IMG/VR virus record: IMGVR_UViG_3300009177_000063
Coordinates: 1-43,602 of that record
Length of the DNA: 43,602 nt
Source: a virus
Reading direction: 5' to 3' (one strand)
Shown: positions 1 through 24,559 of the stretch, in pieces
Position numbering within the stretch: position 1 is the stretch's first letter
Layout: every line of letters begins with the position of its first letter
Made by a program: the position numbers and the translations under genes
The notes under the pieces: generated by a model
Told to the model about the DNA's origin: nothing
The model's input: only the letters and a program-made list of their open reading frames with translations
Databases searched by the model: none

Positions 1-1655
1 GCCCAGCTATGCACCTGACGAATCGTCGGGTCGCTGCTGTAAAGCGGCAGCACGGCAGCCGCAGGGCCAACCACAGTGTCGGTCGTCGTGGTTTCCGAGC
101 AATCAGCTTTGTTGATCTGGATGCTGTCCACGATCTCGCCAGCCAGATTGACCAGCTCGTACCGCAGTGAACAGGTCGTCGCGATGATGCGGCCAGCACC
201 GAATCCGTCGGCGTTTCGAAACTCGCTGTGGCTGTCAGCACCGCCGCTCACCGGTAGAATGGTTCGGCCTCCGAGGCCGTTCAAAATGTAGGGGATGGCA
301 TCGACCGTCAGGCGCTCATACTGCCCAAGGTCGCCGCTGAGCACCATTGACGCGCCCCAGGTTGCGAATGGCCATTGCAGACCGACAACGCCGCCTTGAG
401 AAGCGAACGGGCTGCGATTCAGCACGACTATTTTCCACGCCGCGGCAGACAATGCGAGCTTTGCCTGTAGCCAGTTGCCTTGAACCGAGGACGACGTGTT
501 GCCGTCGGGCTCCAAATCATCATCACTCAGGAAGAAGAAATGCACCTTGCCAATTACCACGTCGTAGTAGCGCTCGTTCCCGGGCAGGGTGAAGAAGTCC
601 TGGTAAGGCACCAGAGCCGCATCAGCCCAATCCACGGACCCAGGAGACGGCCAAAAGTAGTTGGTGTCTGAGCCAGAGCCGAAGGCCCCAGCGTATCCTT
701 TCAGGAAGTCGTGATAGAACTGGCCGACATCGAGATCGTAGTCGCCACTGCCGCTGTTATTGCCGCTGGTGATGATGGCTGAAGGCGGAAACCCACGTAA
801 CAAGGCTGCCACTTGCTGGGCATTGGTATCACCGCTGCCATAATTGCCGATATGAGCAATTGTGAGCATGGTGGCCGGCACGTCGTCAGCAATCTCGCTG
901 AACCATCGGTTGCGCTCAATGCCGCTCTCGTGAGTCGGCCGTAGTTTGGTTTCCTCGTTGCACTGCCACATGAGGTCCGCGAGTGCCTGGTCAAAGCCAC
1001 CAGTCCCCGGAGGGTCGCCCATCTTGTAGCGCCTGGCATCCGCAGCGTCTCCGTAATCGCGCTCGTGCCCATGCTGATAATACATCTTCAACGCCTTCTT
1101 GTAGTCCTGGGCGTCGTTTACTGGGTCGTCGTCAGTCCACTCGGCCTTGATGCCTTCCCACTCGATGACCACGACCTCGTTGCTCTGAATCCAGGGCGCG
1201 ATGTAAATGTTGCCGTCGTGAACGCACCACACACCGGCCCGCGCGCGACCGCATAGACTGTCGTTGGTGGCGTCCGCGTAGGCGAAACCGAATGGCAAGC
1301 GTTGGGGCAGTCCGGATGCCGCTGGGCTGACGAAAAGGTTGCGTGCCCAATCCTCGGGGACGGGCCAAAGAGTTTGGCGCAGGAACACAGGATCACACCA
1401 CTGCTTGTTCGCCAGCGTGTAAACCCTCTTGATAATCCCACGCGGCGCCCGCACAACCGTCATCCCGCACTTGTAGTTCGTCTTACAGAACTCGACCACG
1501 TTGACGTTGCGGTCCTGCTCGCACTTGACCCACTTGGCGATCTCCGCGGCGCCCTCTTGAAAAATCTGGTTGTGGGCATCGACAAGATTCTCCGCTTGGC
1601 CTGATGGGAAGCACTGAGCAATGATCTCGGCGCGAAGTTCGGAGTAGGTTTTCAC
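1..1655 (-). CDS. Tail/connector protein with degenerate purple-acid-phosphatase domain (partial)
   Basis: This gene is open for about 551 codons and runs off the left edge. It starts at a GTG that overlaps the previous stop (GTGA). Residues 1-210 look like a phage tail or adaptor domain I cannot name. Residues about 250-520 follow the plan of bacterial purple acid phosphatases: a Rossmann-like start, the strand KVHFFFLSDD (370-379), the helix after GNWLQAKL, WKIVVLNRSPF, GDLGQYER (441-448), YILNGLGG and a C-terminal EIVDSIQINK strand. The usual metal ligands appear replaced: GNYG for GDxG (N271), GNN for GDN (N299), GSVDW for GNHDW, N413 for the His before the Pro, and GDLG for GHxH. I infer a non-catalytic phosphatase fold reused as a virion or carbohydrate-binding module. 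Its position after the head genes suggests a tail role. The fold match is strong by eye; the function is unknown. Confidence 0.7.
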   Translation of the reverse strand, partial: MKTYSELRAEIIAQCFPSGQAENLVDAHNQIFQEGAAEIAKWVKCEQDRNVNVVEFCKTNYKCGMTVVRAPRGIIKRVYTLANKQWCDPVFLRQTLWPVPEDWARNLFVSPAASGLPQRLPFGFAYADATNDSLCGRARAGVWCVHDGNIYIAPWIQSNEVVVIEWEGIKAEWTDDDPVNDAQDYKKALKMYYQHGHERDYGDAADARRYKMGDPPGTGGFDQALADLMWQCNEETKLRPTHESGIERNRWFSEIADDVPATMLTIAHIGNYGSGDTNAQQVAALLRGFPPSAIITSGNNSGSGDYDLDVGQFYHDFLKGYAGAFGSGSDTNYFWPSPGSVDWADAALVPYQDFFTLPGNERYYDVVIGKVHFFFLSDDDLEPDGNTSSSVQGNWLQAKLALSAAAWKIVVLNRSPFASQGGVVGLQWPFATWGASMVLSGDLGQYERLTVDAIPYILNGLGGRTILPVSGGADSHSEFRNADGFGAGRIIATTCSLRYELVNLAGEIVDSIQINKADCSETTTTDTVVGPAAAVLPLYSSDPTIRQVHSW

Positions 1656-2466: not shown

Positions 2467-3279
2467 TTACGCGATCTGGGGAGGGTTGGCAAGGGGGATT
2501 GTGGCGCCTTTTGACAGATTATCAAATTCCCAAAGGGGCTGGATATTAGAGAAATGAAAGCAAATTTTCTGCTGCTCTGGGTCCGTCAGATCAAAAGAAC
2601 TACATGGTCGCTTATGATCCAGATGGATTTTCCCGCTCATTATTCCCTCCATGCTCATGCCCTCGGTAAATTGCGATTCAAGGTGGGCGATGAGTTCTGG
2701 AATGGTACAGCCAATCAGTTCCATGGTTTTCTTTGCTTTCTTGGCCCGACCTCGGAGCGCGTGCCAGAGACGCGAACGAAGTCGGTTGCCGATATTGTAC
2801 TGCGGATCGGTTTGCCTTTTGTGGCGTTGCCAGAGCTTGATGTATTCACGGTCGCGATCAGCGGTGATGTGCTTCCGTGCTTTTATCCGATCGTACTGCT
2901 TCTGTTTGTTGCGCATGAAATAGTCCATGCCTCGCTTTTTGCACTCGGCGTTGTAGAAAAGGTCTCCGTAGTACTTGTCGTTGCGCTGCTTTATTCTCCT
3001 CTCCCTAATTTTCGGCTGCATGTTTTCAGCCCTCATCTTGGCGAGCACGTCTGGGTCGCTCATCCTGCGGTGGATGTACTGAATGTTCCAAAATTTCTCC
3101 CGATTGAGCAGGAGTATCCAGACGTATAACCGGGAGTTTTTATTACATAGAATTGCGGGCCAAAGCGGCGACACGTCTATAAAATCCACGGCGTCTGCGC
3201 GTTTGTTTTTCCTCCATGCTCGAACGATGGGCGACCAATCAACGGGTTCCGAATTTGGCTTTCTTAATGGGTGCGACAT
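2467..3279 (-). CDS. HNH homing-type endonuclease
   Basis: A 270-aa protein with a long basic helical N-terminal region and a C-terminal HNH-like module: LDHKRP (the catalytic histidine region), then FHFSNIQPLWEFDNLSKG. The latter is the Asn/His part typical of free-standing phage HNH enzymes. I chose the ATG beginning MSHPLRK; a TTG 18 codons upstream has no better support. It lies between the probable capsid gene and the tail genes, with terminators on both sides. This is what is expected of a selfish homing gene placed in an intergenic gap of the structural operon. Confidence 0.8.
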   Translation of the reverse strand: MSHPLRKPNSEPVDWSPIVRAWRKNKRADAVDFIDVSPLWPAILCNKNSRLYVWILLLNREKFWNIQYIHRRMSDPDVLAKMRAENMQPKIRERRIKQRNDKYYGDLFYNAECKKRGMDYFMRNKQKQYDRIKARKHITADRDREYIKLWQRHKRQTDPQYNIGNRLRSRLWHALRGRAKKAKKTMELIGCTIPELIAHLESQFTEGMSMEGIMSGKIHLDHKRPCSSFDLTDPEQQKICFHFSNIQPLWEFDNLSKGATIPLANPPQIA

Positions 3280-3425
3280 AAGTTTTTGAAGCGCCCCGTG
3301 ATGCGTGTCGCACCTTGCAGCAGGGAGCCGCAAGCACGTAACACGGAGCGAAGTTGTTCGGTGACGAATTCATTCGGGTGCGAACCGAGGGAAAAATAAT
3401 GGCCGCCATCTCGAACAAACGCAAC

Positions 3426-5476: not shown

Positions 5477-6967
5477 TCACTTAAACATCACGTCAATGAT
5501 CTGCTGCTGCGTGGTTTTCGCCGGGGTAGGACCATTATTTGCCGTAGTCACGATGTCGGACGCTGAGGCAACTGAGGGCGAACGCGGTTTTCCCGCTGGC
5601 GTTGGGGCAATTGGCGCGGCTGGACGCGCAACTTGCGTGCCCGGTCGGACGCCATTTGTGGGTGGGGCCTCGGGTTTATACTTCCTTTTAGCCAGCGCAT
5701 CGGTTTGTTGGATGAGATTTCGTGCCTTTTTCCCGTAATCGTCGGTAATAAGGTCCACCACATTGTCGATTGTCAGCGTCCAGTGGCGGGCATCGTATTC
5801 CTGAAGCTTGCGTTGCTGCTCCTGGCCGGTCGAGGTATCGCGGATCTGTTTGAAGTCTTTGGCCTTCTGCTCAAGGCTCACCCATTGCCGCCCATTGACG
5901 TTCTGCACTTCTGCCGGGGCCTGCCGCAACTGATTCTCAGCCTCCCACCGATAGCCGTCGATGATTGCGTGGATCTGATTCTTGTCCGGTTGAAGCTTGA
6001 ACGGGTAATTGCCATTGGCATCGCGCACTGTGGATTTTTCCAACTCGCGAAGGATAGGGTCAATCTCGGCCGCAGTCGCGTCGAGGACGGTTGCGGCGAT
6101 AGCGTCGGCCTCGTGAACCTTCTCGACTGCTTCGGTGCTCAGGTTGGGATTCTTGCCGTCTGCCGCGGTGACCAGCGCTACCAGTTCGGGCGCGGCCACA
6201 GCCACAAGCTTGAGAATTCCCCTGGCAACGTTCATTTCGATGCTCGGGCGCGCCGATTCTAAGGCTTTTTCGGCATCCATCATGTCAATGCGGGGCTTCA
6301 CCTTCTCGGCAAACCGCTGCTCGACGCGCTGCTCGACCTTCATGTCAATCAGCCCGTTTTCGATGGTCTCCTTGTCCACCGGGATCGGATTCGAAGCAAA
6401 CCAGTCCGCGTGCTCGTCAGCTGATGGGTCCCATGTCTTGTCGGGATTTTCCTTCTCCCATTTGTCCTGGTAATCGTAAACAGACTTCACGTAATCGAGG
6501 AAAGCTTTAGCCTTGCCGCTGAACTTCGCGGGGTCCTGCTTCTCCAAAAATTGCAGCACTGCGTATTCCTGGGCATCGGAAGCGCTCATTTCGAACGTCA
6601 CCATGGTTGGCTCTGGCGTGGCAGGGGCGGCGGCAGGTTCCGGTCTCCGCATGGCCTCCGCAGTCTCGCGCGCCGTGCGCGTAATCAGGTCCTGGGCGTC
6701 GAACGGGCGTGCCTGCGGCTCAGGCTCTGGTTCTGGCTCAGGTTCGGCTTGCGGCTGCGGCTCAGGGGCGGCAGCGGGCTCTACGGGCGCAATGGCGGCG
6801 GGTTCCGGCTGCGGCTCAGGCTCTGGCGCGGGGTCGCCGAATAACGAATCAACGGCCACTTTGGCCGCTGCCTTTAGTTCCTCGGCATTAGGCACGTCTT
6901 TTGGGTCGGGTTCGGCAGGGGGAGCAGGCTTCACAATCGGCGCTGCTTTAACGAAGTTTATCGGCAT
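5477..6967 (-). CDS. Scaffold-like or internal head protein
   Basis: About 496 aa, acidic and Ala/Pro/Glu-rich. Residues 20-110 contain a low-complexity Pro-Glu tract (repeated PEPEPQ). The middle part is helical with many charged residues, and the C-terminus is Pro/Thr-rich and ends QQQIIDVMFK. Low-complexity acidic N-terminus, helical core and a position just before the probable capsid gene suggest a scaffold or assembly protein. I see no protease motif. A TTG at 6988 overlapping the previous stop is a possible longer start; the ATG at MPINFVK is used here. Confidence 0.6.
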   Translation of the reverse strand: MPINFVKAAPIVKPAPPAEPDPKDVPNAEELKAAAKVAVDSLFGDPAPEPEPQPEPAAIAPVEPAAAPEPQPQAEPEPEPEPEPQARPFDAQDLITRTARETAEAMRRPEPAAAPATPEPTMVTFEMSASDAQEYAVLQFLEKQDPAKFSGKAKAFLDYVKSVYDYQDKWEKENPDKTWDPSADEHADWFASNPIPVDKETIENGLIDMKVEQRVEQRFAEKVKPRIDMMDAEKALESARPSIEMNVARGILKLVAVAAPELVALVTAADGKNPNLSTEAVEKVHEADAIAATVLDATAAEIDPILRELEKSTVRDANGNYPFKLQPDKNQIHAIIDGYRWEAENQLRQAPAEVQNVNGRQWVSLEQKAKDFKQIRDTSTGQEQQRKLQEYDARHWTLTIDNVVDLITDDYGKKARNLIQQTDALAKRKYKPEAPPTNGVRPGTQVARPAAPIAPTPAGKPRSPSVASASDIVTTANNGPTPAKTTQQQIIDVMFK

Positions 6968-6984
6968 AAAAGTTCGGCGTTCAA

Positions 6985-7314
6985 TCAATCGGTCTTGGCT
7001 ACTTCTAGCACTGGCATGGGCTGCAAGTCAACCCCTTGGAAAGAAAACGGGCCTTCGTCTGGCTGACGGTTGCCCTGTGTCGTCTGGATGAACTTGATCA
7101 TGAACTGAATCTGGCGGGCAAGTTCGCCAGCGGCTTCGGCGTCCTCTTTGTCCCCCTGCTCGTTCTTCACCAGAAGGTTTCCAGCGTCGGCGGTGAGTTG
7201 CGCTGACTGCTCGGAAAGGTATCGGAGGAAGAGGGCACAGGCTGGCAATCGTAGCCAATCCTGAAGCTGTTTAGCGCGGTCGTCCGGGTAGGCTGTGGTC
7301 TCGACTTGGATCAT
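6985..7314 (-). CDS. Small head-operon protein, 109 aa
   Basis: Mostly helical, with an acidic mid-section (EQGDKEDAEAAGEL) and a C-terminus rich in Pro/Val. Its ATG overlaps the stop of the preceding 83-aa gene. The family is not recognised. Its place between portal and scaffold suggests a virion accessory or packaging role. Confidence 0.7.
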   Translation of the reverse strand: MIQVETTAYPDDRAKQLQDWLRLPACALFLRYLSEQSAQLTADAGNLLVKNEQGDKEDAEAAGELARQIQFMIKFIQTTQGNRQPDEGPFSFQGVDLQPMPVLEVAKTD

Positions 7315-7562
7315 GCGCTTGTTTTAGCAACTAAGTCAGCCAGCTTTTTCTCAGCCTCGACGGGGTCCATTCTAGCCCACGGTCGGTCTTCAATTACGGC
7401 AAGGGCCTCGCAGGGGCTAAGCCCGTGGCGTTCCTCTAATCGGCGCAGTGTTTGGCTGTGGTTAAGCTGGGCTTGACGCTCATGTCCTGCTATCAGCGAC
7501 CACGGAATAGAACGCAGGACTTGCTTGTCGTGACCTTTCTGGATTGGAAAGTCGCCGATCAT
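7311..7562 (-). CDS. Small head-operon protein, 83 aa
   Basis: Joined by 4-nt overlaps to the portal gene upstream and the 109-aa gene downstream. The sequence is helical with a motif RLEERHGLSPCEALAVIEDR. No family is recognised. Tight coupling to the portal suggests a stoichiometric partner, but that is inference. Confidence 0.7.
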   Translation of the reverse strand: MIGDFPIQKGHDKQVLRSIPWSLIAGHERQAQLNHSQTLRRLEERHGLSPCEALAVIEDRPWARMDPVEAEKKLADLVAKTSA

Positions 7563-10075
7563 GCGCCGTTAGCCATCATCGGCTGATTCACGGGCGGAAG
7601 TTGCGGCGTTAGCGGTGGCCCTGGCTCTCGTCCTGGCGGCATCATCGGCGGCGTCCCAGGCATCGGCGGCCCGCTCGGCGGCATCATCGGCGCAACAATC
7701 ATTCCGACCATCTGCTGCAACACCTTCAGGTCATCCGAGTTTTTCTTAGTCGCCTCAAGCAACGGTTGCAACTCAGGTTGAAGCTGCTGCATCACTTGGT
7801 CCACGACCTGTTTTAGCTGCTGCTCAGCCTGTGCCTTCTGTTCCTCGGGCGTCGTGTTTGGCCCGACGTTCCGGAGTTTGAAGTCCCGATCCACGCCAGC
7901 CTTTTGCGCGATCTGGTTGGCGATGTCAATGAGCTGGTCGGCACCCAATGCCTGAACCATGCCCGGGATTTGAAGCAACGGTTGCATAAGTTGGCTCATG
8001 GCAATTGCGACCTGGGCGTCGTTCGTGCGGTCTTCGCCGTCGCGGGTCGAAGCAAAGAGCCACATGTCGATAGCGGTGGCCTGCTTCTTCACGCGCGCCG
8101 TGTGGTATTTGTCCCGCACGTTGAGATCCTTGTCCACGAAAGTAAAGCCCATGGCGTTCAGTTGCTCCTTGGTCAGTGGGGTCTCAGCGGGGATATGCGC
8201 GTACATGTCGTCGTCGCCGTAGGCCATCAGGCCGCAGTAGATTTGCCGCTTCCAAGCCTCGCAGAGAATATCGACTGGCGTAGCGGTGAACGTCTGCCGG
8301 CTGGAAGTGCTCTGCGCGATGTTCCGGACCTCTTCGCGCGTCTGCTCATGGCTGGCGGCCTGAGCGACTTCGTGGCTGCTCATTACCAATAGCCGTTCGA
8401 GTACGTCGAGGATGGTCTTTAGGACGTTGATCAACTCGGCGGTGTTGCCCTTGGGCAGCGCGAAAGTCTGGACGGCTTCACTGACCTTGTTCTGGCCACG
8501 GCTGGCTTTCTTGCCTGAGTAGCCGAACACGTTCAGAAAACGGTAAAGCCCCTCGCCGATGCCTGCGATGCGCTTCTTCGTGTCCTCCGGTATCTGGTCC
8601 TCATCGACCATCGTGATGTTGGCGAGGTTCTGCTTCGCCGTCAGGATGATCTGGTTGAGGACATTCGTGAACTGGTCTTGGAACGGCAGGATTTCCAGAC
8701 TCATTGAGGCATTGCGGCTGCGGCTTTCGTCGGCGTCATACCCGGCGTAGAGCACCGGGCAGTAGGGCAGGGGTGCCGCGTAGATGATCGTGCAACCGTC
8801 GCCGGCAAGGACAAACCTGAACCAGACGGGATGGTCGTAGTCGCCAAGCCCGTTCTCACTCGGCACCAACTTTTCGAAATATTCGGTCACCAGAACGCCT
8901 TGGTCCAAGTGGTCGGTGCCGTAGTATTGATTAGCCAAATCCTTCTCACGGTCGAGTTGGCCGGTGCCGACTCCAGCCGTGTAAACCGGGGCTGCGCCGT
9001 CGATTGCTGGCGCCGGGGCTGGTGGAACAGCCACGCCCATTTTCATCGTGCAAGCGGAATAGACAGAGGTGAAGAACAGGCGATTGTTGACCAGCAGATC
9101 CGCGGTGCCCAGGCTCACCTTGTCCGTGTTCCAGAAGCCGCTGGTGAGAATGTCGCGGTAACGCGCCACGCGCCAGGCACCGAAAAACTGGCAGCCGCTG
9201 TCCGAGTTGTAGGTATAAGCGCCGTGGGCGAGGTCTTTGAAATATCGGGTGGGATGCCAGTGCTGGTAGCGCAATCCCTCGCGGGTGGTCACCTTGATTT
9301 CATCCCCGGCATTGACCGGTGTGCCATCCTCCTTCTTCTTTTCCATCAGGACATCTTCCTGATCGGCAATCTTCACCTGCGTCTCCGAGTGCCACTCCTC
9401 TTTCGGAGTCATAAAGCACTCGCCGTAATGGAGCATTTTGAAAACGCCCTGCTTCAGCACGTCGAAGTAACTGTATTGCGTCGAGATGCCCTGGACGCGA
9501 TCGGTCAGCGCCTCGCACTTTACCCGCAACTGCGTCGTGGCTTTCACCGGCTCGTACTTGAGGAACGGTATCAGCCGACGGTCGTTCATCAGCTTCGCCC
9601 AGCGGATCGTCAGGTAGGCGCGGACCAGTGGAACGAAAACATTGAAGAAAATCGGCAGGTTGAAAACCTTCTTCCCGGTGTCGGCGCCGGTTCTCGGGTC
9701 CTTCTGCTGCTCGATTAGCGACGTCAGTCCCCAGTCCTGAAGCTGTTTGTAAACCGTGTCCTCATCGGGGTTGCTGTCGATCAGGGAAGCGATCAAGGTC
9801 GGGCTTATTTGCCGAAACGGGGTGTCCCATGCCTGGTCGAGCGCGTAGTAGGTTTTCCAGTCACGAAAGTTTCGGTCCATGCCCTCCTGAACACGCGACC
9901 TGATTCGGTTCCACAGCGCCCAGCGTTTGTCCTGCTGTGTTGCGGTCAGCGGGTCGTAGCCAGGATCGCCGAGTTTTGCGCTGCCGTGCTGCAGGTCCTT
10001 CGGGTCGCCCTGCAAATTCTGGCGCAGGGTTTCGGCGGTGATGCCCCGCTTGGTAAGGATTGTAAGATCGATCAT
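7559..10075 (-). CDS. Portal protein
   Basis: An 838-aa protein in the size range of large podovirus-type portals. Evidence is mixed. It leads the head operon and faces the terminase across a short divergent gap. It has the long helical region typical of portals late in the chain (LINVLKTILDVLERLLVMSS, then EVAQAASHEQTREEV). The C-terminus is Gln-rich coiled coil followed by a Met/Pro-rich tail (PPMPGTPPMMPPG). The portal forms the dodecameric ring at the head vertex through which DNA is pumped. The start ATG lies 4 bases after the preceding gene's stop. Confidence 0.8.
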   Translation of the reverse strand: MIDLTILTKRGITAETLRQNLQGDPKDLQHGSAKLGDPGYDPLTATQQDKRWALWNRIRSRVQEGMDRNFRDWKTYYALDQAWDTPFRQISPTLIASLIDSNPDEDTVYKQLQDWGLTSLIEQQKDPRTGADTGKKVFNLPIFFNVFVPLVRAYLTIRWAKLMNDRRLIPFLKYEPVKATTQLRVKCEALTDRVQGISTQYSYFDVLKQGVFKMLHYGECFMTPKEEWHSETQVKIADQEDVLMEKKKEDGTPVNAGDEIKVTTREGLRYQHWHPTRYFKDLAHGAYTYNSDSGCQFFGAWRVARYRDILTSGFWNTDKVSLGTADLLVNNRLFFTSVYSACTMKMGVAVPPAPAPAIDGAAPVYTAGVGTGQLDREKDLANQYYGTDHLDQGVLVTEYFEKLVPSENGLGDYDHPVWFRFVLAGDGCTIIYAAPLPYCPVLYAGYDADESRSRNASMSLEILPFQDQFTNVLNQIILTAKQNLANITMVDEDQIPEDTKKRIAGIGEGLYRFLNVFGYSGKKASRGQNKVSEAVQTFALPKGNTAELINVLKTILDVLERLLVMSSHEVAQAASHEQTREEVRNIAQSTSSRQTFTATPVDILCEAWKRQIYCGLMAYGDDDMYAHIPAETPLTKEQLNAMGFTFVDKDLNVRDKYHTARVKKQATAIDMWLFASTRDGEDRTNDAQVAIAMSQLMQPLLQIPGMVQALGADQLIDIANQIAQKAGVDRDFKLRNVGPNTTPEEQKAQAEQQLKQVVDQVMQQLQPELQPLLEATKKNSDDLKVLQQMVGMIVAPMMPPSGPPMPGTPPMMPPGREPGPPLTPQLPPVNQPMMANGA

Positions 10076-21915: not shown

Positions 21916-22155
21916 TTACTGGTCTAAGAAATCGACTTCTTCGTGCTCCAATATCCCGATAACCGGGTTCGCTGGTGAAAACGAGTGCGTCCAGAAGGGG
22001 TGCTTTACGAGCATCACAATTTCAGGAGCGGCTGGATCCGGATGCAGTCCAGTAACGATGGCAGCGCCTCCTGGGTATCCACCGATTGCTTCGGTCATTA
22101 TCACGCGGCCAATCGCCGAACGTCCGTAGATGTTTACGAACGATCCGGCGTTCAC
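21916..22155 (-). CDS. Small beta-rich protein, 79 aa
   Basis: Its GTG overlaps the exonuclease stop (GTGA), so it is translationally coupled. The sequence is beta-rich (AIVTGLHPDPAAPEIVMLVK, then VIGILEHEEVDF). HPDPA appears here as well, perhaps by chance. Function unknown. Confidence 0.6.
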   Translation of the reverse strand: MNAGSFVNIYGRSAIGRVIMTEAIGGYPGGAAIVTGLHPDPAAPEIVMLVKHPFWTHSFSPANPVIGILEHEEVDFLDQ

Positions 22156-23933
22156 GGCGTCACCCCAATATCCTCGTAGCTTTCTTGGGATCGGCCTGCT
22201 GCGATGTCGTCGGCAAAAGCCATCTTCACTCGCGGCGGAGGCGGGCCACCGTTCAATTCGATCAGCCGAGCCATCGCACGGTCGAACTTGCCGAGGAAGA
22301 TTTCGAGGGCTTCGGCGAGTTTTTCCTGAAAGATTTCGTCGCGTGGAACGGTGATCACCAGCGCAGGGAAATGCCTTCTGTAACTTATGAACTGCCATTC
22401 CTTGCGGCCCGTGACGAACATCGCTCCCTGAATTTGGCTGATGTGTTCTTTTGGGACCTCGTTCTTGAGCAGATATTTGACGTGTGTTTCGGCGGCGGGG
22501 CACTTTATCTCCACGCCCGAGTAGTCGCCGATAAGGCCGTCGGGCGAGCAGTTGCCAACCCAGGTAAACCGACCACCTCTTCGAACCAAAACAATCCCCG
22601 TATGGGTAGTTACGCAAAACACATCATCGTCGTGCTGGATTACATTGAACCCAAGCGCTCTGTTTGGGTCTTTGGAAATCACATGATAAGCCTTTCCAGT
22701 TTTCCGTATGTTAATGTGGTATTGGATCTTAGACCATCCGGTTCTGCCGCGAATATTCCAACGCCGCGGCGAACGGATGTGTAATGATGGCCACCAGCCG
22801 GCCCGGATTACCAACTCGCACAAATCATCGGCGAGCGCTTTATTTGATGTGAATAAAGACCTCTGACCGTTACGACCGGTCCATCCGTCGCCTATCATAA
22901 ATCCGCCCAAGAAGGCTCGAATGGCCTTTCGCGATCCGAAACGAATGTAACTCGGGACTCGCTTTCCAAACGTCCCGCTTCCGCAAGATAATACGAGCGC
23001 CTCGGCGAGTGCCCGGCGTTCGGTTGTCCAGCCATTCTTTTTTTGGCACCATCTAACCGGAATTGCTTTTATGATCTCTTTTGCAGCATCAAGTTTTCCT
23101 GCTGCAGTTTGAGCTATTCCAACTTTTCCTAGGTTGGTGCCTTGGCGGTTTTTCTCTGTCCACCCTTCCGCTATCCATAGACCTACAAATCGAGCCCAGT
23201 CAATAAACGGAACTCTGAATCCCAGTGGCCCTTTGGGGTGATTTTTTACGGGTGTAAGTTCTTGGACTTCATATTCCTTAGGGTCAACCTGCTCCTGGTG
23301 CCATATCTCAGGAACCTGCACAAATTCTCCGCTTCCTCCAAGATCCTGGCTTTCGATGAACCCCGTTCTCTCGGTCCTGCGCCTTCCTCCAACCCATTTC
23401 ACAATCGTTCCCCAAAGTCGATGATTGGGCGTAACAACAAGATTCACTACAGCATCCCCGTAGTGGTGCATTGGCCCTGTGTAATGATAGCGAATCAAAC
23501 GAAGAACGGGCGACCACTTGATTTTGTTGCTGTCGGGATCAAGATTAGCAATTAGATCAGTGCTTTTTACGTCCTGCACGGGAACAAATCCACGGTGTGT
23601 AAGAATATCTGTTTTTCTATCAAAACACCCAATGCGTCCGTCATCGGTCGTCACCAAGCCGACGCGCTCGATCTTCCAGCCAAATTCAAACTCAGCCCAC
23701 GGGATGGCTTCGCCTTCGAGGATTTGGCCTTGCTCGGTCGCGAAGGAGCCGAACCCGGGCAGCGGTCCATTCCATGCCTCGGCGAGTTTGCGGCAGAGAA
23801 AGGTTTTGGGAGTTTCACCTTCCCTCGGCTTGCCGTCGGGGCTAATGAGGCAATCGAACTCGCTGGCAGTCGGAATTCCACATCGAGCTTCTATCCATTC
23901 TACGGACTGCTGTTGACATTCTACGATCTTCAT
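22152..23933 (-). CDS. YqaJ-type exonuclease interrupted by a LAGLIDADG intein
   Basis: 593 aa. The host protein is a lambda-exo/YqaJ-type 5'-3' exonuclease: residues 8-33 (QQSVEWIEARCGIPTASEFD) match the YqaJ start, and the catalytic PD-(D/E)xK block is SPDGLIGDYSGVEIKCP. An intein splits the chain directly before that block. With the ERF annealing protein upstream, the pair would do single-strand annealing recombination. The ATG overlaps the HNH stop (ATGA). The exonuclease should be inactive until splicing restores the C-terminal half. Confidence 0.85.
   Translation of the reverse strand: MKIVECQQQSVEWIEARCGIPTASEFDCLISPDGKPREGETPKTFLCRKLAEAWNGPLPGFGSFATEQGQILEGEAIPWAEFEFGWKIERVGLVTTDDGRIGCFDRKTDILTHRGFVPVQDVKSTDLIANLDPDSNKIKWSPVLRLIRYHYTGPMHHYGDAVVNLVVTPNHRLWGTIVKWVGGRRRTERTGFIESQDLGGSGEFVQVPEIWHQEQVDPKEYEVQELTPVKNHPKGPLGFRVPFIDWARFVGLWIAEGWTEKNRQGTNLGKVGIAQTAAGKLDAAKEIIKAIPVRWCQKKNGWTTERRALAEALVLSCGSGTFGKRVPSYIRFGSRKAIRAFLGGFMIGDGWTGRNGQRSLFTSNKALADDLCELVIRAGWWPSLHIRSPRRWNIRGRTGWSKIQYHINIRKTGKAYHVISKDPNRALGFNVIQHDDDVFCVTTHTGIVLVRRGGRFTWVGNCSPDGLIGDYSGVEIKCPAAETHVKYLLKNEVPKEHISQIQGAMFVTGRKEWQFISYRRHFPALVITVPRDEIFQEKLAEALEIFLGKFDRAMARLIELNGGPPPPRVKMAFADDIAAGRSQESYEDIGVTP
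22551..23627 (-). mobile_element. LAGLIDADG intein within the exonuclease gene
   Basis: Codons 103-461 (359 aa). Block A starts at C103 (CFDRKTDILTHRG), block B is VVTPNHRLW (the T-x-x-H), the two LAGLIDADG helices are FVGLWIAEGW (about 249-258) and FLGGFMIGDGW (about 341-351), block F is VFCVTTHTGIVLVRR, and the end is WVGN followed by Cys+1 of SPDGL. The usual penultimate His is a Gly here. The insertion point is next to the catalytic SPDG motif, as is common for inteins. Splicing would leave RIG-CSPDGLIGD. Confidence 0.88.
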
Positions 23934-24559
23934 ACGCTTGCCCATCTTCGAACAGGTGCCGTTAGCGTCTTTTCCACTATCCACCCGCTTCTCATTCTTG
24001 AATTTACGATCTGACGCGGGAGATTGAGATGCCTTTCCCACTGAGCGGGGGTCATCGTAAGCCCAGAGAAGGTGATTTTTTTGGAATTGCGGTGGTTGTT
24101 GGCCTGGGTAATCGCGTCTGCCCAGCGACAATTTTTAGGCTCATAGTTGCCATCAGGATCAATCCGATCTATGGAGTGTTTCGGCGTTGGCTTTGATCCC
24201 ATGTCTGCGTAGAATTGAGCGAAGTTATCCCACGCGCCACAGATCGTTACGCAGCTTCCTCCGTACCTGTGAAACTCGTTATTATTGGGATCTTTGCAGC
24301 GACCTCGCATTTTCATCCAACTTCGCCATTCTGGACTTCTGTGCATTCCGTGCCGCCTGGCGCGGTTTCCAATCATCTCGTTAGCGAGGCATCCGCACGA
24401 CTGTATTTTGCCTGCGCAAAGATGGCCAACTCTAACCTTTGTGGTTTTTCCACAATCGCACAAACAGAGCCAGTACGTATCGTAGCCACGTCTCTCGAAA
24501 TCAGCGGTAACGGCAAGCCTTCCAAACCTCTGCCCAGCCAAATTTTTGAATTTGTGCAT
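23930..24559 (-). CDS. HNH homing endonuclease (AP2/NUMOD type)
   Basis: 209 aa. The start ATG has AGGAG at the right spacing. N-terminal CLCDCGKTTKVR, then QSCGCLAN (paired-Cys motif), is followed by the block HSIDRIDPDGNYEPKNCRWA, then NHRNSK: the classic HNH of phage homing enzymes. It sits between the ERF and exonuclease genes and overlaps the latter start by four bases, so it has been fully integrated into the operon. Confidence 0.87.
   Translation of the reverse strand: MHKFKNLAGQRFGRLAVTADFERRGYDTYWLCLCDCGKTTKVRVGHLCAGKIQSCGCLANEMIGNRARRHGMHRSPEWRSWMKMRGRCKDPNNNEFHRYGGSCVTICGAWDNFAQFYADMGSKPTPKHSIDRIDPDGNYEPKNCRWADAITQANNHRNSKKITFSGLTMTPAQWERHLNLPRQIVNSRMRSGWIVEKTLTAPVRRWASV

Follow-up and report, generated by a model that had tools for sequence, protein, structure and literature searches.

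A functional purple acid phosphatase (PAP) carries seven metal ligands (D, D, Y, N, H, H, and H) distributed over five motifs. Bacterial PAP-like metallophosphoesterases (PF00149; such as those of Hymenobacter and Anaerolineales), which share the same core and C-terminal strands and 37-46% identity over the whole domain with the protein described here, keep all of the ligands and are free proteins, some with secretion tags, but show no fusion to a virion protein. The metallophosphatase fold is also used as an anchor or scaffold by Plasmodium GAP50 and by VPS29 of the retromer, although these are eukaryotic proteins with other partners, and GAP50 has been reported as an active acid phosphatase as well (PMC8949495). 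Among phages, PAP-like genes are found in Microbacterium phages Rowlf (gp26) and cluster EK1, where their functions are given as unknown and the EK1 gene is present or absent among close phages; unlike the family studied here, neither ligand loss nor adaptor fusion is described for them in the available portions of these reports (PMC12352085, PMC13014141). In addition, ORF22 of P1312 carries a carbohydrate-binding module alongside its metallophosphatase domain (PMC4569894). The head-tail adaptor of podophage SU10 forms a dodecamer between portal and nozzle on which long tail fibres dock, and the accessible part of that report describes no PAP extension of SU10 or GP4 adaptors (PMC9509320), in contrast to the protein considered below.

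The window, i.e., the whole 43,602-nucleotide stretch of virus record IMGVR_UViG_3300009177_000063, contains an adaptor-PAP fusion gene whose 3' end is open at its left edge (base 3). The initial annotation had read this gene correctly, with two corrections: it lies on the minus strand and it is truncated in the window. A sister contig (L002, IMGVR_UViG_3300025941_000018; 75,295 bases), identical to the window across their common 7,655 bases, encodes the full-length protein of 589 aa at positions 6001-7770. The features are listed in Table 1. The low-confidence extension of ~65 aa that follows the PAP domain (L002:7579-7767) was seen in the window phage only; it ends in ...GDPNGHVYSVSPAITIDTTNGVIWQKNDGISSSNGWH and resembles a phage tail-protein end motif.

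Table 1. Features of the adaptor-PAP fusion gene in the window (residue numbers refer to the encoded protein)
Feature	Position	Strand	Basis or remark
Adaptor-pseudoPAP fusion gene	3..1655	(-)	GTG start at 1655; cut by window edge, 551/589 codons
Head-tail adaptor (tail tubular A-like) domain, residues 1-240	936..1655	(-)	AF2 blocks mostly >90; Foldseek
Flexible linker, residues 241-260	876..935	(-)	pLDDT <50 (alignment-based AF2)
PAP-like domain without metal ligands, residues 264-520	96..866	(-)	Homology, profile, AF2, Foldseek
Start of C-terminal extension (residues 521-589 in L002)	3..95	(-)	Low confidence; not in compared relatives
N271, replaces ligand Asp of GDxG	843..845	(-)	Asn in 6/6 dead members
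N299, replaces ligand Asp of GDN	759..761	(-)	Ligand Tyr three residues further also gone
S340 V341, replace ligand Asn and catalytic His of GNHD	633..638	(-)	Alignment columns
N413, replaces ligand His of FHHxP	417..419	(-)	Bacterial columns and TRAP alignment
D442 and G444, replace both ligand His of GHxH	324..332	(-)	Alignment columns

No sequence-level match to residues 1-240 was present in PDB. Foldseek searches with the model of this region, however, retrieved chains of the SU10 tail (7z47_A, E 7.7e-6) and of the GP4 portal-tail complex (8jov_G, E 1.1e-5), together with viral models annotated as 'Head to tail adaptor' or 'Tail tubular protein A', which places it in the podovirus head-tail adaptor fold. 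The SU10, GP4, and T7 gp11-like adaptors also have the same siting among virion genes: downstream of the fusion gene lie genes for an Ig-domain protein (Big_3_5, Big_2), a Phage Tail Collar domain protein, and a phrog_3287 virion protein. The protein had initially been described as a tail protein, and its tail location stands, whereas a tail-tip position does not, because the N-terminal half has the adaptor fold. Considering this fold and the virion-gene neighbours, we infer that the PAP-like domain hangs from the adaptor ring at the collar; by analogy with SU10, the ring is probably a 12-mer.

A PAP-like domain had been proposed by eye from about residue 250, and homology, AlphaFold2 (AF2), and Foldseek agree on it with borders at residues ~264-520; all of the motifs quoted at that time (GNYG, GNN, GSVDW, N413, GDLGQYER, YILNGLGG, and EIVDSIQINK) are present. 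Hymenobacter metallophosphoesterases encoded on plasmids matched 97% of the domain with 41% identity (tblastn, E 3e-53), and 336 stretches of GTDB genomes encode relatives, the best 80 of which (from Bacteroidota, Chloroflexota, and others) show 37-46% identity. A profile built from bacterial PAPs only matched the window in a six-frame search (E 2.5e-85) as well as 27 complete or nearly complete phage proteins (E 1e-57 to 4e-100). The single domain sequence had no match in Pfam-A, nor in PDB by phmmer, and the window protein did not reach the gathering cut-off of PF00149 (Metallophos), whereas intact fused relatives passed this cut-off (E to 1.6e-16); the fusion gene had no PHROG match. The family profile, by contrast, matched human, rat, and pig PAPs (E to 8e-16), plant PAPs, and GAP50 in PDB. 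AF2 yielded a pLDDT of only 34 for the full protein from the single sequence, but with an alignment of 88 sequences it gave two confident domains separated by a disordered linker (241-260) at a pLDDT of 85.1, with most PAP-domain blocks at 92-98. Foldseek placed PAPs first for this model, with rat PAP at the top (E 2e-15), and GAP50 and VPS29 were also among the matches. Thus, whole-domain homology and predicted structure assign the domain to the PAP fold of the metallophosphatase superfamily. A single-sequence PDB match to glycosyltransferase GtfA (E 0.009) covered residues 168-321, straddling the domain border, was not reproduced, and was attributed to chance.

In bacterial relatives, each of the seven metal ligands and the catalytic His is intact in 81-82 of 82 sequences, whereas the window protein has N271, N299, no Tyr, S340, V341, N413, D442, and G444 at these eight positions; not one of the seven ligands (0/7) occurs in it or in five relatives. 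Among 70 columns that are each at least 95% conserved in bacterial PAP domains, the window protein keeps 0/8 ligand or catalytic columns versus 54/62 others (Fisher p 1.4e-6), where selection of the bacterial set by similarity to the window may slightly inflate 54/62 but not 0/8. The coordinated loss of metal ligands proposed from inspection of the sequence is therefore confirmed, and it extends to the Tyr ligand, which had not been listed. N413 had been assigned to the right column: the metal-binding His is the first His of FHHxP, a position that 82/82 bacterial sequences fill with His and that lines up with the TRAP His; R414, at the second His, was rejected as a ligand position considering that it is His in only 72/82 bacteria and considering the TRAP alignment. 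Whole-domain alignments with relatives also exclude intact Asp or His ligands elsewhere in the domain. Since the PAP fold is retained while all ligands have been lost together, a non-catalytic use of the domain, at least as a phosphatase, is supported as originally suggested, judging from sequence comparison.

The adaptor was found at 51 loci in scans of IMG/VR, and PAP matches were obtained for 29 distinct proteins, including the heavily truncated L134 and L144. About 19 other fusions from uncultivated phages (L117-L133 except L130, together with L138, L142, and L155) have the same two domains and keep the active site; some of the mostly ligand-keeping fusions are without the Tyr or without His at the variable second His position, and L137 also has an altered E. 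These intact relatives appear, from their residues, to be working phosphatases. L130 and L135 are partly degraded, and all seven ligands are lost in six distinct complete proteins with differing replacements: L136 (that of the window), L009, L139, L140 (contig L010), L141 (contig L007), and L143 (contig L012); the truncated L144 agrees with this dead set over its extent. In a PAP-domain tree built with the ligand columns masked, the fused phage domains are separated from 29 bacterial domains (support 100/98), and the fully dead set forms one clade (98/83) within the phage PAP clade. L130 is placed inside the intact clade, and therefore degradation has happened more than once. Because the same fusion has an intact site in most relatives, the window branch is one branch of a larger series from enzyme to pseudoenzyme. 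A second, active PAP gene was looked for in the window and in PAP-less sister loci, and none was found.

A partly degraded PAP domain, with both His of GHxH lost, also forms the C-terminal end of another protein, of 819 aa (L171:2328-4787), whose gene follows a 354-aa gene within a cluster of virion-type genes. This domain is a separate recruitment of the same fold, and the 819-aa protein may be a nozzle.

The dead domain is under purifying selection: its reading frame is intact in 6/6 dead members, and among four close ones (L009, L139, L140, and L141; 70-82% identical in the domain) its dN/dS is 0.095-0.144 versus 0.054-0.139 for the adaptor half, values that are approximate because dS is high (1.1-2.4) and that are not informative on positive selection at single sites. 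With catalytic residues gone and fold and selection kept, the window domain would be classed on these comparisons as a pseudoenzyme, a dead PAP. In the close dead members (70-84% identical), 18/32 positions lying no more than two residues from an old ligand vary versus 86/239 elsewhere (one-sided p 0.023), whereas two quartets from intact clades show the opposite (9/32 and 15/32 variable near ligands). Such variability could reflect either relaxed constraint or a binding site that is diversifying.

The PAP domain occupies an exchangeable slot. In other phages the adaptor C-terminus carries CHB_HEX_C_1/Fn3_assoc domains, DUF5977 repeats, or no domain, and such replacement of PAP by chitobiase C-terminal/Fn3-associated domains or DUF5977 repeats was seen at L146, L156-L161, L148-L153, and L162-L165. 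In the adaptor tree, the group of ten that includes the window (100/100) comprises six members with dead, four with absent, and none with intact PAP domains. Considering that the slot is swappable and that some sister adaptors have no PAP domain, the domain is not obligatory for the ring, and an accessory role is favoured. Adjoining genes carry adhesion-type domains (Big_3_5/Big_2, vWA, and laminin-G). The gene after the adaptor appears as a second variable slot, occupied by Ig-like plus von Willebrand A, laminin-G-like, or DUF5122 beta-propeller proteins (L012:9581-11608, L014:8771-9853, L016:6209-7545, L007:4488-5339, and L015:6338-9538; the von Willebrand-like protein of L016 was read by eye and is seemingly split across two frames). 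Two further ORFs on the minus strand of the window were observed: one for a YqaJ recombinase (22152-24131), broken by Hint/LAGLIDADG-type sequence with the look of an intein with a homing endonuclease, and an HNH-like-looking ORF among the virion genes (2467-3333), without a Pfam match and perhaps a free-standing homing endonuclease.

We propose that the gene encodes a head-tail adaptor, probably dodecameric, to whose C-terminus a flexible linker ties a PAP domain, presumably displayed outward at the collar. In the ancestor, the fused domain was probably an active metallophosphatase arranged around the tail collar, such as most relatives still appear to carry, and it may have acted on the host surface. 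In the window branch the di-metal centre would have been wholly lost while purifying selection held the fold, which suggests that the domain now works without phosphatase catalysis. Its likeliest current role would be that of an accessory module for binding (adhesion), present in several copies close to the ring where fibres attach and touching the host surface, a surface glycan, or a phosphate group; we give this present use as a binding module roughly an even chance.

A possible but rather doubtful alternative is a structural module that makes no host contact, with the dead domain packing on or anchoring the tail fibres, the Ig-domain protein, or the collar protein. Long tail fibres do dock on SU10 adaptors, according to the available part of that report (PMC9509320), PAP-like GAP50 is a known motor-complex anchor (PMC8949495), VPS29 is another scaffold of this fold among the Foldseek matches, and deeply conserved patches persist (QWPFxxWG, EPDG, and YERL). 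However, these patches mostly represent the fold core since most are common to free bacterial PAPs, the predicted linker between the PAP domain and the adaptor is disordered, and sister adaptors with unrelated domains or none indicate that the ring does not require the domain. Changed catalysis or metal use in the altered cleft (a new or single-metal site, or metal-free hydrolysis) seems improbable: N271 is invariant in 6/6 dead members, E447 of YER is retained, and the cleft offers N, D, Q, and E side chains, but a catalytic site would be expected to be conserved, and the cleft residues vary among members (D/G/Q; at the His position, N/A/Y/D/W/E). A functionless relic of a phosphatase being lost, as four domain-less relatives in the same adaptor clade and the variable old active site might suggest, was rejected as very improbable on the dN/dS of ~0.1, equal to that of the adaptor half, the intact frame in six members, and the 54/62 other PAP positions kept in the window protein.

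Returning to the binding module, the proposed turn of a phosphatase into a non-catalytic module resembles, by analogy, GAP50 and VPS29. No report of the adaptor-PAP fusion or of its dead branch was found in the literature searched, coverage of which was partial, and the isolate phages in the collection examined gave no tblastn match from the family of the window. The first match in that phage collection, MT837099, was set aside as an unverified fecal scaffold whose remaining ORFs look bacterial, and other fecal scaffolds gave weak matches only.

An unannotated phage gene is now tied to two known folds, and a phosphatase-type domain is found to be borne by a tail-joint protein and not by a fibre. 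Automated annotation would miss such genes, or would label their relatives 'metallophosphoesterase' and presume activity. The broader view that a virion ring displays a host-envelope phosphatase, which several lineages have turned into a non-catalytic receptor-binding module through loss of the metal site, is offered tentatively, at somewhat less than an even chance. On this view, the series from intact L117 through partly degraded L130, L135, and L171 to the dead clade of the window would document how a tail enzyme became an adhesin. The graded relatives (intact, partly degraded, dead, swapped out, and absent) form a direct test set for the change from enzyme to pseudoenzyme on a virion.
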